Shown piece by piece: positions 4,415 to 17,493 of a stretch of DNA of 64,000 nt. Both the position numbers and the translations under genes were made by a program. The notes beneath the pieces are model-generated. The model saw only the letters and a program-made list of their open reading frames with translations, was not told where the DNA came from and ran no database searches. The DNA comes from Betaproteobacteria bacterium. Its GTDB lineage: Bacteria; Pseudomonadota; Gammaproteobacteria; Burkholderiales; Casimicrobiaceae. The first letter of the stretch is position 1; the number at the start of each line of letters is the position of its first letter. The stretch spans positions 620,001 through 684,000 of the forward strand of contig JAAFJO010000001.1 of assembly GCA_013298145.1 (NCBI GenBank). The letters run 5' to 3'.

Positions 4415-5311
4415 ATGCAGCGCCGCGCGTTCGTTTCCGCGCTGGGCACAGCGCTTCTTACACCCGCGGCCCTCATCGGCTGCGCTGAGATTGGGACCGG
4501 CTATGACGTAACAGATACACCCCGCGAAGGGGCGATTGCGTGGCCCGCCGACCGAGCGCGAACTGCGCTCGTATTGGGCAGTGGAGGGCCGCGTGGTTTT
4601 GCACATGTGGGTGTTTTGAAAGCACTTGAAGCGCAGGGAATCGAACCCTCGCTCATCGTGGGCGCGAGCGCAGGTGCGATTGTTGGCGCACTTTACGCGG
4701 CGCGATTGGCTGCGCGCGAAATCGAAGCGCTCGCGCTTGATCTTGGCGTGCGTCAAATCGCAGATCCCGCAATCTGGCGCCCGAATCGCCTCATCGGGCG
4801 CGCGCTGCAGGATACGATTGTCAACGCCACAAAAATAGCGCGCATTGAAGACTTGCCGCGTCCTTTCGTGGCGGTCGCCGCGAGCGTGTCGGGCGGCAAG
4901 CTCGTGGCGTTTACCAAAGGGCATTTAGGCGCAGCAGTTCGCGCATCCGCCGCGTTGCCATCGATGTTCTTGCCGGTGACAGTGGCTGGCGAGCTCTACG
5001 AAGATGGAGACATGGTGTCCCCTGTGCCGATCCGCGTTGCACGAAGACTCGGCGCAACGCGTGTGGTGGCGGTTGATGTGTCTGCATGGGTTGAGGATGA
5101 GCCTGCGCAAGCGTACGAATCGTGGCGCAAGCGAGACGCCGAGCGACGCGCCATCATCACCGATGAAGCGCTCGACGCAGATTACGTGCTGCGTATTCGA
5201 TTGCCCTACTACGCAGGCGCTTCTCGCGAGTATCGTGAGAACGTGATTGCACTTGGCGAGACGCAAACGCTTGCTGCCACTCAAGACATCCGAAAATTGC
5301 TCGCCGCGTAG
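4415..5311 (+). CDS. Patatin-like phospholipase family protein, exported or lipoprotein-like
   Basis: TALVLGSGGPRGFAHVGVLKALEAQGIEPSLIVGASAGAIVGALYA (oxyanion hole and GxSxG) and a DGD motif (EDGDMVSPVPI). Start chosen at ATG 4415 (MQRRAFVSALGTALLTPAALIGCAE). Confidence 0.88.
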   Translation: MQRRAFVSALGTALLTPAALIGCAEIGTGYDVTDTPREGAIAWPADRARTALVLGSGGPRGFAHVGVLKALEAQGIEPSLIVGASAGAIVGALYAARLAAREIEALALDLGVRQIADPAIWRPNRLIGRALQDTIVNATKIARIEDLPRPFVAVAASVSGGKLVAFTKGHLGAAVRASAALPSMFLPVTVAGELYEDGDMVSPVPIRVARRLGATRVVAVDVSAWVEDEPAQAYESWRKRDAERRAIITDEALDADYVLRIRLPYYAGASREYRENVIALGETQTLAATQDIRKLLAA

Positions 5312-10192: not shown

Positions 10193-10292
10193 TGTCATTC
10201 CCGCGAAAGCGGGAACCTACTCATTGATTGATGTTCTCCGTTTCGGAGCGCGGGTGTCGGCAGTGGGTCCCCGCGTTCGCGGTGATGACAGA
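10193..10292. repeat. Palindromic repeat, GTCATTCCCGCGAAAGCGGGAA family
   Basis: tgtcattcccgcgaaagcgggaacc ... gggtccccgcgttcgcggtgatgaca inverted arms. Confidence 0.85.
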
Positions 10293-12469: not shown

Positions 12470-14083
12470 CTATTCCACCAACGCGCTAAACGTTAATCCA
12501 AACCGCGCCAAATACTTGCGCAAGCGATCCGCATCGTTCACTTCACTTCGCTCCTCGCGCGAGACGTTGTAGAGTTTGCGCCCCGCGTCCGAGAGCGTGC
12601 GGCTTTGTTTGCACACACGAATCACGGCTTCGAGTTGCAGGCGGTCGAAGAGATCGAGTTTCGCGAGTGCGGCCTCGTCGACATAGCGCTCGAGATCGAC
12701 ACTTCGCGCGCCCCTGGTCGATGCGTCTTTCGCCCAAAGCCATTTGAGCCGCTCGATTTCAGCATCGACTACGGCCTCGGTGATGCGCCCGCCGTCGGCG
12801 AGTGTGGCCATGCGAGTCACACTTGCGGAGAGATCACGGAAATTTCCTCTCCACGCCCCGTTTACGCCGGACGCGAAGCTCATATAGTGTTTTTTCGCTT
12901 CTACATTAAATCGAGCTTGTTGCCCAACATCTTTGGGGCTAAACGATAAAAGATAGTCTACGTTAGGCTCAATGTCTTCCGGTCGCTCAGCAAGGCCGGG
13001 TAAGGTGTAACTCCAAAGATTGATCCGCGCGAATAAATCCTCTCGAAACTCACCGTGCGCGACCGCATCACGAAGATCGAGATTGGTCCCCGCGATCAAC
13101 TGAAAATCGCTCGCGACTTCCTTATCTGCACCGACCGGATAGAAGCGTTTGTCTTCAATCGCTTTGAGCAGCATCGCTTGTTCATCGAGGCCTAGCGTGC
13201 CGATCTCATCAAGAAAAAGCACGCCTTTGTCAGCGCTGCGAAGTAAGCCCGCGCGATCGGCCATCGCGCCCGTGAACGCGCCTTTTTTGTGACCAAACAA
13301 AGTGGAAGCGGCGCCGTCGCCCATGAGCGTCGCGCAGTTCACTTCAACGAATTCGCCAGTGACGTTGTGTCGCTCTTTCTTCAATTCATAAATGCGCTTC
13401 GCGAGAAAACTTTTCCCCGCGCCTGTGGGGCCGGTCAGCAACACCGGTGCACTGGATCGCAGCGCCACGTGTTCAATCTCATCGATCAAGGCGTTGAAGC
13501 GCTTGTTTTTCGTCGCGATGCCGCTTTTCAAATAGCGCTTGGCATCGTCTGTCGCAATCGCAAAGCGTTTCGCAATCGCGTCGTAGCGCGAAAGGTCAAG
13601 ATCGATCAACGCATAGCTTCCCGGATCGCCTTCGCGCTGCGGGCGCGGCGGCGCAGTTTGCAGGAGCACGCCCGGCAGCACGCGCGCCTCTGCAAGCAAG
13701 AACAAACTAATCTGCGCGACGTGCGTGCCCGTTGTGATGTGAATCCAATAGTCCGATTGCTCCGGATCAAGCTTCTGCGCATGCGCCCAATCAAAGAGCG
13801 CGCCATACATCTCACCAAAGTCCCACGGATCGCACACAGGCAGCGCATGCAATGTGACGCGCGTGTCCGGGCTCACGAGCGCGATATCCGCCACCACTTG
13901 CTCTGCAATCCGCTCATGCCCCGGCGAATGCAACAGCTCAATCGCATCAATCGCGACACCCTCATGCTGCACGATGGAAATCGTAGGACGCCATTTTTGC
14001 CAGCGACCACGCCCGCCGCCTGCATCGAGTTGGGAGCCGAGGAAGCCGATGACGGTGGTGTGTTTTGTGGTTGGTTGTGACAC
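12470..14083 (-). CDS. rtcR: RNA-repair operon transcriptional activator RtcR (CARF-like N-terminus, sigma-54 AAA+ domain)
   Basis: TVIGFLGSQLDAG..., HITTGTHVAQISLFLL (RtcR N-terminal domain), then LLTGPTGAGKSFLAKRI, GHKKGAFTGA and GVLFLDEIGTLGL sigma-54 activator motifs. GTG start at 14083 preferred (MSQPTTKHTTVIGFLG); track start is 14131. Confidence 0.95.
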   Translation of the reverse strand: MSQPTTKHTTVIGFLGSQLDAGGGRGRWQKWRPTISIVQHEGVAIDAIELLHSPGHERIAEQVVADIALVSPDTRVTLHALPVCDPWDFGEMYGALFDWAHAQKLDPEQSDYWIHITTGTHVAQISLFLLAEARVLPGVLLQTAPPRPQREGDPGSYALIDLDLSRYDAIAKRFAIATDDAKRYLKSGIATKNKRFNALIDEIEHVALRSSAPVLLTGPTGAGKSFLAKRIYELKKERHNVTGEFVEVNCATLMGDGAASTLFGHKKGAFTGAMADRAGLLRSADKGVLFLDEIGTLGLDEQAMLLKAIEDKRFYPVGADKEVASDFQLIAGTNLDLRDAVAHGEFREDLFARINLWSYTLPGLAERPEDIEPNVDYLLSFSPKDVGQQARFNVEAKKHYMSFASGVNGAWRGNFRDLSASVTRMATLADGGRITEAVVDAEIERLKWLWAKDASTRGARSVDLERYVDEAALAKLDLFDRLQLEAVIRVCKQSRTLSDAGRKLYNVSREERSEVNDADRLRKYLARFGLTFSALVE

Positions 14084-14140
14084 TCTTTGCTGCTCCTTGT
14101 TCTCTCTAGCGCTGGGTTCCTTGCACCACACCTCAATCTG

Positions 14141-14246
14141 TCATCCCCGCGGAGGCGGGGACCCAGACCCAAACGGTCGAGAAACTACGATCATTTGATC
14201 AACAGCAATCTGCCCGGTCTGGGTTCCCGCCTTCGCGGGAATGTCA
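14141..14246. repeat. Palindromic repeat, GTCATYCCCGCG family, second copy
   Basis: tgtcatccccgcggaggcggggacccagacc ... ggtctgggttcccgccttcgcgggaatgtcag. Confidence 0.85.
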
Positions 14247-14255
14247 GATATTAGT

Positions 14256-14398: not shown

Positions 14399-14414
14399 TG
14401 GCACGCTCGCTGCA
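14399..14414 (+). promoter_or_regulatory. Sigma-54 (-24/-12) promoter of the tRNA-like/slipin/rtcB operon
   Basis: TGGCACGCTCGCTGCA: the -24 GG and -12 GC are separated by exactly 10 nt; near-consensus TGGCACG-N4-(T/C)TGCA. Confidence 0.85.
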
Positions 14415-14545
14415 ATAGAGGAAACGTCAAACAGAAAACATGATGCGCTTACAGGTTCTAGGGGTTTGCTCCCCGCCGGTGCGCGATGCCTCGAATGGTT
14501 CGAGTTGCGTGTTGCGTATGCCGCCGCATGTGGACTGCTTGATAT

Positions 14546-14602
14546 GAAGTTCTCTTGGCGACAGCGGCAACGCTGTTGGGTTCGATTCCCTTGAATTTCT
14601 CC
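14546..14602 (+). ncRNA. Candidate truncated tRNA-like element
   Basis: 7-bp acceptor-like stem GAAGTTC (14546-14552)/GAATTTC (14593-14599), internal 8-bp hairpin CGACAGCG-GCAA-CGCTGTTG (14559-14578), and a canonical T-loop GG-TTCGATT-CC (14579-14589). Confidence 0.5.
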
Positions 14603-14678
14603 TTTTGGATAGCTCAATCGGCAGAGCAATCGACCACGAATCGATATGTAGCGGGTTCGAATCCCGTTCCAAAAACCA
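14603..14678 (+). ncRNA. tRNA-like RNA of the slipin-RtcB RNA-repair operon (76 nt, encoded CCA; ACG in the anticodon position)
   Basis: Cloverleaf: acceptor TTTTGGA/TCCAAAA; D stem GCTC/GAGC with loop AATCGGCA; anticodon stem ATCGA/TCGAT with loop CCACGAA; variable ATGTA; T arm GCGGG-TTCGAAT-CCCGT; then A-CCA. Position 33 is C instead of U. Confidence 0.88.
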
Positions 14679-14989
14679 GGCCTTGAAAGCCACCATGAAA
14701 CCGAGCCGCAAGGCTCACCGCCGAATGCAAATCGGCAACGCGGACAGCGAAGCATCAAAACGCGAAAGCGAATTGACGCGGCGGTGGAAGCGAAGACGAT
14801 TTGTCAGCCCGCGCGCTCTGCGATACGCAAGAGGCGAGGGCAAACGGCACGGCAGCGTTACTTGTGATGCGTTTGATGCAGTTTGATCGAGCGCAAAGCG
14901 AGCGACAACACCGATGCCCGATGTTCAACGCAAGCGAATCCCGCGAGTGGACTGTAACGGCAACACTCACGAACAAAGGAAGAACAAAA

Positions 14990-16126
14990 ATGAAATTTAA
15001 TCGAGTAAGTGTGCGCAAAACCGAACGAGCGGTCCTCTTGCGCAATGGCGATTTCGAGCGCGTGCTCGCGCCAGGTCAATACTGGTTTCCTACGCTCTTC
15101 GACAAGATTGTCGTGGAGCGAAACGAGATGGCGCAGCCACTCTACATCGGCGCCGCTGCCGACTATTTGCTGGCGACCCCAAGCGATGCCGCAAACGAAT
15201 ACTTCGTGCGCGTCGAGCTGAACGATACGCAAGCCGGTCTTTTGTATGAGAACGATTCGCTCGTCGAGCTTTTGCCGCCTGCGACGCGTCGTTTGTATTG
15301 GAAGACTTCGGCAAACGTGCGCGTTGAAACCGTTGAGCTTTCGGGTGAAGGGGAGCTTGCGAAAGACTTGATCGCAAAGATCACGCATTCGCAATTGAAG
15401 CGTCGCGCGGTCGCGGGTTTGCAAGCGGTGTTGCAAGTGCAAGTGCCGGAATTCAACGTGGGTTTGCTCACGATTGACGGAAAGCTCGTGCGCTCGCTCA
15501 CGCCCGGCGCGTATGCGTTCTGGCGATTCAACCGCAACGTTTCCGTGGAATACGTGGATTTGCGCGTGCAGGCGGTTGAAGTCACCGGTCAAGAAATCTT
15601 GACGCGAGACAAAGTGGCGCTGCGGCTCAACCTTGGCGCAACGTGGCGATATGCGGACGTGTTGAAAGCGTTCGCGACGACTGCGAAGCCGGTGGATAAC
15701 CTCTATCGCGAATTGCAGTTTGCATTGCGCGCCGCAGTGGGAACGCAGTCGCTCGACGAGTTGCTGGAAAACAAAACGGCGCTTGATGAGAAGGTTGCAT
15801 CCGCAGTGCGCGAGCGTATAGCGAATGCAGGTATCGCGCTTGAGGCCGTGGGTGTGAAAGACATCATCCTGCCGGGCGAGATGAAAGCGATCCTCGCGCA
15901 AGTCGTAGAAGCGGAAAAAGTAGCGCAAGCCAACTTGATCCGTCGCCGCGAAGAAACCGCTGCATCGCGCTCGCTATTGAACACAGCGAAAGTGATGGAA
16001 GACAACCCAGTGGCGCTACGCCTGAAAGAGCTAGAAACGCTGGAACGCGTCGCGGAACGCATCGACAAAATCTCTGTGTTCGGAGGTTTGGATGGTGTGT
16101 TGAATGCGTTGGCAAAGGCCAAATGA
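14990..16126 (+). CDS. Slipin / SPFH-Band-7 family protein
   Basis: MKFNRVSVRKTERAVLLRNGDFERVLAPGQYWF, VLQVQVPEFNVGLLTIDGKLVRSLTPGAYAFW, IALEAVGVKDIILPGEMKAILAQVVEAEKVAQANLIRRREETAASRSLLNTAKVMEDNP are SPFH/Band-7 features. ATG 14990 preferred over the longer track ORF. Confidence 0.92.
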   Translation: MKFNRVSVRKTERAVLLRNGDFERVLAPGQYWFPTLFDKIVVERNEMAQPLYIGAAADYLLATPSDAANEYFVRVELNDTQAGLLYENDSLVELLPPATRRLYWKTSANVRVETVELSGEGELAKDLIAKITHSQLKRRAVAGLQAVLQVQVPEFNVGLLTIDGKLVRSLTPGAYAFWRFNRNVSVEYVDLRVQAVEVTGQEILTRDKVALRLNLGATWRYADVLKAFATTAKPVDNLYRELQFALRAAVGTQSLDELLENKTALDEKVASAVRERIANAGIALEAVGVKDIILPGEMKAILAQVVEAEKVAQANLIRRREETAASRSLLNTAKVMEDNPVALRLKELETLERVAERIDKISVFGGLDGVLNALAKAK

Positions 16127-16132
16127 GACTCC

Positions 16133-16256
16133 CTCCCCTTCAAGGGGAGGGCGGGGTGGGGATGGGGTTCTTTTGTAGCGCTATCAAACCCCATCCCCCT
16201 CCCGTCGATACACTTTTCGACAAGCATGTCTACGTCCCCCTTGAAGGGGGAGGAAA
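16133..16256. repeat. CTCCCCTTCAAGGGGAGGG family palindromic repeat between slipin and rtcB
   Basis: ctccccttcaaggggagggcggggtggggatgggg ... ccccatccccctcccgtcg ... cccccttgaagggggagg. Confidence 0.85.
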
Positions 16257-16266
16257 CCAGCAGAGA

Positions 16267-17493
16267 ATGACTCAGATAAAAAACTACAACGAAATCAAAA
16301 CCGAAAACGTCCCGATCAAGATGTGGACGAAGGGCGTGCCTGTTGAGGACGACGCTCAGAAGCAACTCATCAACGCTTCGAAATTGCCGATTGTGTTTAA
16401 GCACATCGCCGCGATGCCGGATGTGCATTTGGGGATTGGTGCGACCGTGGGCTCGGTGATTCCTACGTTGCGGGCGATCATTCCGGCGGCTGTCGGCGTG
16501 GACATCGGTTGCGGGATGATTGCTTGCAAGACGACGTTAAGCGCGAGTGATTTACCGGATAACTTGTTGCCGCTTCGTAGCGCGATTGAGCGTGCGGTAC
16601 CGCATGGGCGCGTGGCGATGCGCGGGAAGCGAGACACCGGTGCGTGGGATACGCCGCCGGATGAAGCGGATGCTGCGTGGGCGAAGCTCGCGTCGGGGTT
16701 CGATGAAATCACTGAGATCGAACCGCGCTTGAAAAACACGAACAACCGAAAGCATTTGGGAACGCTTGGAACGGGTAACCATTTCATTGAGATTTGTCTC
16801 GATGAAACGCAATCGGTGTGGATCATGCTGCATTCGGGTTCGCGCGGCGTGGGTAACGCGATTGGAACGCTCTACATCGAGCGCGCTCGCGAAGAAGCGA
16901 TCAAACACAACATGAATTTGCCCGACAAAGATCTGGCGTACTTCGAAGAAGGCTCCAAATATTTCGGTGACTACGTACGTGGCGTGAGCTGGGCGCAGCA
17001 ATTCGCGAAGTTAAATCGCGAAGTGATGATGCAGCGCGTGATTGCTGCGATGAAAAACGTGATCGCGAAACCGTTTGAGACGCATCTCGAAGCGGTGAAT
17101 TGTCATCACAACTACGTGAGCCGCGAAACGCATTTCGGCGAAGAGGTGTTCGTGACGCGCAAGGGCGCGGTGAGCGCGAAGGCGGGTGAGCTTGGCATCA
17201 TTCCGGGATCGATGGGCGCGAAAAGCTACATCGTGCGCGGAAAAGGCAACCCGGAAAGCTTCATGTCGTGCAGCCACGGCGCAGGACGCACGATGAGTCG
17301 CACGCAAGCGAAAAAGCGCTTCACGCTCGCCGATCACATCAAAGCGACCGAAGGCGTTGAATGCCGAAAAGACGAAGACGTGATCGACGAGATTCCGATG
17401 GCGTACAAGGATATTGATGCCGTGATGGAAGCGCAGCGGGATTTGGTGGATGTGGTTTACACACTTAAACAAGTGGTTTGTGTGAAGGGGTAG
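16267..17493 (+). CDS. rtcB: RNA 3'-phosphate/2',3'-cyclic phosphate-splicing ligase RtcB
   Basis: AAMPDVHLGIGATVGSVIPT, AAVGVDIGCGMIACKT, LGTGNHFIEICLDE, MLHSGSRGVGN, CSHGAGRTMSRTQAKKRF are RtcB motifs. ATG 16267 preferred, after an SD-like ggaggaaa. Confidence 0.96.
   Translation: MTQIKNYNEIKTENVPIKMWTKGVPVEDDAQKQLINASKLPIVFKHIAAMPDVHLGIGATVGSVIPTLRAIIPAAVGVDIGCGMIACKTTLSASDLPDNLLPLRSAIERAVPHGRVAMRGKRDTGAWDTPPDEADAAWAKLASGFDEITEIEPRLKNTNNRKHLGTLGTGNHFIEICLDETQSVWIMLHSGSRGVGNAIGTLYIERAREEAIKHNMNLPDKDLAYFEEGSKYFGDYVRGVSWAQQFAKLNREVMMQRVIAAMKNVIAKPFETHLEAVNCHHNYVSRETHFGEEVFVTRKGAVSAKAGELGIIPGSMGAKSYIVRGKGNPESFMSCSHGAGRTMSRTQAKKRFTLADHIKATEGVECRKDEDVIDEIPMAYKDIDAVMEAQRDLVDVVYTLKQVVCVKG

Follow-up and report, generated by a model that had tools for sequence, protein, structure and literature searches.

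The elbow, the acceptor/T stack and the 3′ end are the substrate features recognized by RNase P, RNase Z and the CCA enzyme (PMC4919913, PMC11693755), and for RNase P a T-loop or a similar loop is required while the D-loop is dispensable (PMC4919913). In the case of mascRNA, cleavage by RNase P and RNase Z is followed by the addition of CCA (PMC11693755). YrlA, a Y RNA of the Salmonella rsr-yrlBA-rtcBA operon, is a tRNA mimic under the control of RtcR (PMC7790460, PMC8394870), and Salmonella RtcR itself is activated by tRNA fragments (PMC7790460). In Anabaena (trn operon and TrcR regulon), a single regulator controls rtcB, a slipin gene and a tRNA array induced by stress (PMC10272220). For tRNA-like RNAs in RtcR-slipin-RtcB loci, we have found no paper in the literature searched and no family in Rfam; an earlier mention may exist.

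Here we have analysed a stretch of 64,000 nucleotides of bacterial DNA (the window), in which an earlier note, made from the sequence alone, had described a truncated tRNA-like fold (M1 below) just 5′ of a full tRNA mimic (M2).

Organization of the locus

The locus is arranged in the order rtcR, promoter, E0, M1, M2, E3, slipin, rtcB (Table 1). As in an RtcR-controlled RNA-repair operon, rtcR is divergent from a sigma-54 promoter that drives rtcB, and the leader between this promoter and the slipin gene contains four conserved elements, E0, M1, M2 and E3. Judging from the promoter at 14399, transcription is expected to start near 14424. In many orthologues, sites resembling this promoter are found 450–810 nt 5′ of slipin. 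Among the 83 loci checked, 48 have RtcR upstream and 61 have RtcB no more than 2.5 kb downstream, and upstream tRNA genes were counted in 28, a few of them being M1 itself called as a tRNA. The module is also present in cultured relatives, including Acidovorax, Roseateles, Delftia and others. The whole genome has no match to the Ro60/Rsr (TROVE) domain PF05731, and an RtcA gene was not found in it either. Searches of plasmids with the window leader and of phages with the leader of locus L071 gave no match.

Table 1 Features of the locus, with positions counted from the first nucleotide of the window.
Feature	Position	Strand	Evidence or remark
rtcR	12470–14131	-	RtcR (CARF-type) domain PF06956, E=9e-74; sigma-54 activation domain PF00158, E=2.5e-49
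Sigma-54 (-24/-12) promoter, TGGCACGCTCGCTGCA	14399–14414	+	sole TGGCACNNNNNYTGCW match in the window, 0.22 expected by chance
E0, RNA element of two hairpins (GGGG-loop-CCCC followed by a GCCGGUGC stem that closes on AUGCCGC)	14451–14526	+	27-sequence alignment
M1 acceptor, 5′ strand, GAAGUUC	14546–14552	+	pairs with 14593–14599, 7 bp, one G-U
M1 mini D-arm, UC-UUGGC-GA	14553–14561	+	2 bp, conserved GG in loop; covariation against L002 and L003
M1 anticodon-arm-like hairpin without anticodon, CAGCG-GCAA-CGCUG	14562–14575	+	3 of 5 pairs compensatory among the three closest relatives
M1 T-arm, UUGGG-UUCGAUU-CCCUU	14576–14592	+	3 bp and two U-U mismatches
M1 acceptor, 3′ strand, GAAUUUC, then UCC	14593–14602	+	in 50 of 65 orthologous M1s, the acceptor is followed at once by NCCA
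M2, full-cloverleaf tRNA mimic, C33, ACCA end	14603–14678	+	ARAGORN tRNA-Arg(ACG); Rfam tRNA 60.8 bits
E3 hairpin, GAGCC-GCAA-GGCUC and ACCGCCGAAUGC, after M2	14703–14728	+	conserved as GGTCGAAAGACC-ACCCGCCGAACGC in aligned loci
Slipin / Band-7 (SPFH) protein	14990–16126	+	PF01145, E=1.5e-29
rtcB RNA ligase	16123–17493	+	PF01139, E=7e-129

Some other features of the window were observed in passing. Between rtcR and its sigma-54 promoter (14140–14250) there is an inverted repeat of the GTCATCCCCGC...GCGGGAATG type, at a position where the upstream binding sites of RtcR would be expected, and a repeat resembling it occurs near 10200. ARAGORN also calls a tmRNA on the minus strand at 4626–4793 with the tag ASASISRAANRAA; this call stays below the Rfam threshold and is probably spurious.

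M1 folds as a mini-cloverleaf

M1 covers 14546–14599, followed by UCC at 14600–14602, and lies directly 5′ of M2. The earlier note had placed the fold at 14546–14602, with a 7-bp GAAGTTC/GAATTTC stem containing one G-U pair, a TTCGATT T-loop and a TCC spacer of 3 nt before the mimic starting at 14603, and all of these are confirmed, the T-loop lying at 14581–14587. The T-stem, which it regarded as weak, is indeed made of only three G-C pairs (14578–14580/14588–14590) and two U-U mismatches. A GCAA hairpin is present as well, but it has 5 bp at 14562–14575 and not the 8 bp proposed, and the orthologues support a mini D-arm of 2 bp 5′ of it. On this covariation evidence, we have replaced the 8-bp hairpin by a mini D-arm plus a 5-bp hairpin. 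The description of M1 as a minimal mimic of acceptor and T-arm therefore needs to be extended: it is tRNA-like, with these two arms as its base and with a fuller mimic directly 3′ of it, but the mini D-arm and the anticodon-arm-like hairpin make it a mini-cloverleaf and not merely an acceptor with a T-arm.

The loop of the hairpin is a GCAA tetraloop and not a 7-nt anticodon loop. M1 is missed by both the Rfam tRNA model and ARAGORN, and it falls outside the tRNAs as defined by at least 29 bits with RF00005 and a 7-nt anticodon loop. As to the 3′ end, UCC (14600–14602) reads by its sequence as N73-C74-C75 of an NCCA end, which is encoded in full in most orthologues; M1 of the window has no encoded A76.

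When M1 was folded alone, the z-score was -1.8 against shuffled sequences, and 10 of 200 shuffles were as good. That is, the fold of the single sequence exceeds the shuffles only to a modest degree and would not prove the element, so comparison with other loci is needed. The acceptor match in the window is above the expectation from shuffled flanks (p=0.01).

Conservation and covariation of M1

We have examined a sample of 80 loci encoding related slipins, together with relatives. A T-arm element is located directly before an M2-like fold in 74 loci (duplicate records excluded, window included). The consensus of M1 is a mini-cloverleaf with an acceptor of 6–7 bp, a D-arm of 2–4 bp with GG in its loop, a hairpin of 4–7 bp usually closed by a tetraloop (missing in L013, L030, L057, L071, L077 and L080), and a 5-bp T-arm with the loop TTCRANN, usually followed by an encoded NCCA and then at once by M2. 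Among the 65 distinct M1s, which come from related loci and are not independent events, the acceptor is paired in 89% of cells, compared with 34–47% after sliding. GG stands at a fixed place of the D-loop in 58 of them (26 expected), and 62 have the mini D-arm, with a total score of 415 against a permuted maximum of 365. The register of M1 was picked by complementarity, against which the sliding and model tests are only a partial guard.

Since the M1s differ in length, the MAFFT alignments of all of them (A1 and A2) are not structural, and we have used a set of eight ungapped sequences (A3) for the covariation analysis. In A3, 14 of 18 pairs show changes on both sides, and the covariation score is 0.647, while it is 0.200 for shuffled and at most 0.165 for slid sequences. 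For the window and its two nearest relatives, L002 and L003, both sides have changed in 9 of 19 pairs (0.719 versus 0.355 shuffled). In this comparison, the acceptor strands GAAGUUC/GAAUUUC of the window are opposed to AGCAAAU/GUUUGCG, and both pairs of the mini D-arm have changed together, being UC/GA in the window and CU/AG in L002 and L003. The two T-stem pairs that are U-U in the window are also U-U in L003, and they are paired in L002 (UCGGG/CCCGA, 5 bp). The covariation across orthologues that the earlier note had proposed to look for is thus found in the acceptor, the mini D-arm and the hairpin.

These data bear on whether M1 is simply a decaying, functionless remnant of a tRNA gene, a reading close to the decayed tandem copy of the earlier note. 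M1 of the window has two T-stem mismatches and lacks CCA, other lineages carry tRNA arrays 5′ of the same module, and the 5′ member of the tandem pair is a full cloverleaf in Pseudomonas (L064, L065 and L075) and in L086–L088. However, the compensatory changes in the acceptor, the D-arm and the hairpin, observed against the nearest relatives as well as across the 65 forms, contradict the idea of decay, and the mini form prevails among the Burkholderiales loci. We consider decay very improbable and have rejected it. Since compensatory changes affect 9 of 19 pairs against the two nearest relatives alone, M1 of the window is, as far as the sequences tell, a maintained structure with one weakened stem.

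The structure of M1, its position and its operon context are conserved. Overall, the sequence comparison argues that M1 is a real conserved RNA domain, whose fold has been kept by paired mutations in dozens of related bacteria.

Searches with covariance models

Eight loci, among them neither the window nor its near relatives, served to train the models R1 and R3, of which R3 also includes the mini D-arm. With R1, 14546–14599 is the top match in 64 kb (20.2 bits, E=0.01), and with R3 M1 of the window is the best hit at its exact coordinates (25.2 bits, E=0.0002 in 73 kb). In the own genome (4.1 Mb), the window element is still ranked first by R1, at E=0.67; the E-values for M1 are rough in all these searches. 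Large genome scans with R1 and R2 (the model that finds E0) used strict filters under which known loci were missed, and they give no prevalence. In such a scan of low sensitivity over 300 order-level genomes, five of the six hits were upstream of a slipin gene.

Neighbouring elements of the leader

As a domain, M1 belongs to a larger structured leader (E0-M1-M2-E3), and M2 is the only part of it that ARAGORN and Rfam detect. For E0, compensatory changes are found in 12 of 18 pairs of the 27-sequence alignment. R2 recovers E0 of the window with 49.1 bits (E=3.9e-7), the window being among its 27 training sequences, and no Rfam match was obtained for it when the L071 region was searched at E up to 5. 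In two Pseudomonas loci (L074 and L079), E0 is found 5′ of slipin at 52–53 bits and neither M1 nor M2 is recognised, which shows that the tRNA-like pair need not accompany E0.

Concerning M2, a 7-nt anticodon loop is present in no more than 26 of 67 distinct loci, and a GNRA tetraloop often takes its place. The 7-nt loops carry U33 in 23 of 26 cases with scattered anticodons, and the acceptor in orthologues usually has only 3–5 bp. A conserved 7-nt anticodon loop with U33, as expected for functional decoding, is not observed, and the window has C33. As the anticodon loop is of 7 nt in a minority of loci and the acceptor is usually short, M2 is not a decoding tRNA in most lineages. Near the slipin start, a CTGTAACGGCACC stretch is conserved in addition.

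Related loci contain further RNAs. Between slipin and rtcB, a conserved RNA of ~210–240 nt with tRNA-like ends is observed at L024 (6160–6392), L045 (6160–6392), L046, L038, L048, L059, L060, L070, L080 and L081; it is absent in the window. It has a 7-bp acceptor with compensatory changes (GGGCGCG/CGCGTCC, GGGCACG/CGTGTCC, GGGCATG/CATGCCC), a T-arm, ACCA and a long conserved insert. The copy in L045 has no Rfam match at its cutoff (tmRNA 13 bits), and this RNA could be a tmRNA-like RNA or a tRNA-like RNA bearing an insert.

Arrays of up to 16 ordinary tRNA genes lie 5′ of E0-M1-M2-slipin-rtcB in L005, L006, L007, L013, L019, L058 and others, mostly at loci where no RtcR was found in the stretch examined. 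L019 and L058 have in common a small protein encoded ahead of the array (without a Pfam match in L058), and L058 also encodes an HNH endonuclease. In the own genome, a 26-tRNA array covering nearly all amino acids was seen at L118 (5841–8500; C1:862841-865500), and genes near it encode a KptA/Tpt1 RNA 2′-phosphotransferase, a NACHT protein and an HNH endonuclease similar to the one in L058.

A proposed processing model and its alternatives

In terms of sequence, M1 appears to keep the features read by RNase P, RNase Z and the CCA enzyme, i.e., the elbow, the acceptor/T stack and the 3′ end, and to have dropped those for decoding, with its anticodon arm reduced or lost. It is probably a handle for tRNA-processing enzymes, and the release by RNase P/Z suggested in the earlier note fits its apparent anatomy. 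We give about an even chance to the reading that we prefer, namely that the RtcR-induced tRNA mimic is cut by these enzymes, which would part the leader RNA from the slipin-rtcB mRNA. Damaged tRNA would activate RtcR, and the leader would be transcribed together with slipin-rtcB. M1 would then fold as a mini-cloverleaf, with a tRNA elbow formed by the GG of the D-loop against the T-loop and with an acceptor/T helix ending in NCCA. RNase P would cut at the 5′ end of M1 and free E0 from the mRNA, together with the upstream tRNA genes in other lineages. If cleavage also took place at the M1/M2 junction (14602/14603), M1 would end in UCC with only A76 missing, and tRNA nucleotidyltransferase could supply this final A to a presumably functional product. 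Because of the two T-stem mismatches and the lack of an encoded A76, M1 of the window may be a weak substrate, and a second RNase P cut at the junction is doubtful in most orthologues, as the acceptor of M2 is so short. As the module is present in cultured relatives, direct tests of its processing and of how it affects RtcR are feasible.

Another idea is that M1 and M2 serve as decoys or as reporters, either for RtcR or for toxins that cut tRNA. Intact mimics would soak up nuclease or tRNA-binding proteins, while cut ones would give 5′ tRNA fragments that sustain RtcR, the CARF domain of which binds 5′ tRNA fragments with cyclic phosphate (PMC7790460). The induced transcript does begin with tRNA mimics, and the missing RtcA gene would agree with this idea, in that cyclic ends would have to arise from cleavage itself. 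On the other hand, the anticodon loop, which is the usual toxin target, is absent from M1 and often from M2, and Salmonella YrlA stays uncut under inducing conditions (PMC7790460). We regard a decoy or reporter role as unlikely.

Returning to the cleavage model, a role in cleavage alone does not explain the conservation of M2, E0 and E3. M1 and M2 may instead be parts of one stable noncoding RNA (E0-M1-M2-E3) that takes part in tRNA repair as an effector or a ribonucleoprotein scaffold, comparable to YrlA, and whose tRNA-like domains would bind tRNA-handling enzymes. We hold this as a tentative alternative. YrlA is likewise a tRNA mimic in an RtcR-controlled rtcB operon (PMC7790460, PMC8394870), E0 and E3 are conserved along with M1-M2, and M2 is unable to decode in most loci. 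The YrlA model (RF02553) also aligns weakly over the T-arm of M1 and the D-arm of M2, with 22.9–26.3 bits in L071, L080, L012 and L070, but these scores are far under its cutoff of 69 bits, and no match is listed in the window region. Moreover, in a genome without Ro60/Rsr such a scaffold needs another partner, such as slipin. A wider form of this idea, which we put forward only as a possibility, is that E0-M1-M2-E3 is a composite noncoding RNA, hitherto undescribed and induced by RtcR, whose mascRNA-like mini-tRNA and second mimic act together with slipin and RtcB as the tRNA-mimicking partner of a repair system without Ro60 and RtcA.

Finally, the tRNA-like leader might be a cis operator, through which RtcB, slipin or a tRNA-binding enzyme controls the translation or stability of the slipin-rtcB mRNA. 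tRNA-like operators exist, e.g., in E. coli thrS; the elements here lie in the leader of a ligase operon, and conserved sequence (the stretch mentioned above) reaches close to the slipin start. However, ~300 nt separate M2 from this start and no link from M1 to the ribosome-binding site was seen, which makes this reading quite improbable.

Comparison with known systems

The locus resembles the rtcBA operons of E. coli and Salmonella in that rtcR is divergent from a sigma-54 controlled rtcB operon. It differs from them by the presence of slipin and the apparent absence of RtcA, and in E. coli the gap between rtcR and rtcB is 188 bp and contains neither E0 nor M1. The Anabaena trn operon/TrcR regulon shares rtcB and slipin, and some of the orthologous loci also have tRNA arrays ahead of the module; its regulator is different, and no mini-tRNA is reported there.

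Compared with tRNA (RF00005), M1 has an acceptor, a D-arm, a T-arm and a CCA end, but no anticodon and a length of only 54 nt. M2 has the full cloverleaf, but its anticodon loop is unconserved and often a tetraloop. YrlA is, like M1 and M2, a tRNA-mimicking RNA in an RtcR-controlled rtcB operon. It carries a tRNA-like domain with the T-arm before the D-arm on a Ro60-binding stem, whereas here two tRNA-like folds stand in tandem and there is no Ro60 gene. M1 as a member of YrlA, mascRNA, tRNA or tmRNA was rejected, since the scores are under the cutoffs.

The top Rfam resemblance of M1 is to mascRNA-menRNA (RF01684), with 31.3 bits in L073, 25.5 in L053, 23.9 in L012 and 17.3 in L071; the cutoff is 42.5 bits, and the window element is not listed among the matches. 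M1 has the same architecture, i.e., an acceptor and a T-arm, a reduced D-arm with two G, a compact equivalent of the anticodon arm and a 3′ CCA, and like mascRNA it is placed at the boundary of a longer RNA (PMC11693755). In human mascRNA, the tRNA-like domain guides RNase P to part a noncoding RNA from a small tRNA-like RNA, which offers an analogue for M1. Unlike mascRNA, M1 is bacterial, belongs to an RNA-repair operon, has its CCA encoded in most orthologues and is directly followed by a second tRNA mimic. As the Rfam scores are below the cutoff, the likeness is likely convergent. If so, M1 would clearly illustrate convergent tRNA mimicry, as a conserved bacterial RNA that shares the reduced-tRNA plan of its mammalian counterpart and belongs to an operon for the sensing and repair of broken tRNAs, and it would give a handle on the role of noncoding RNAs in RtcB repair operons without Ro60.
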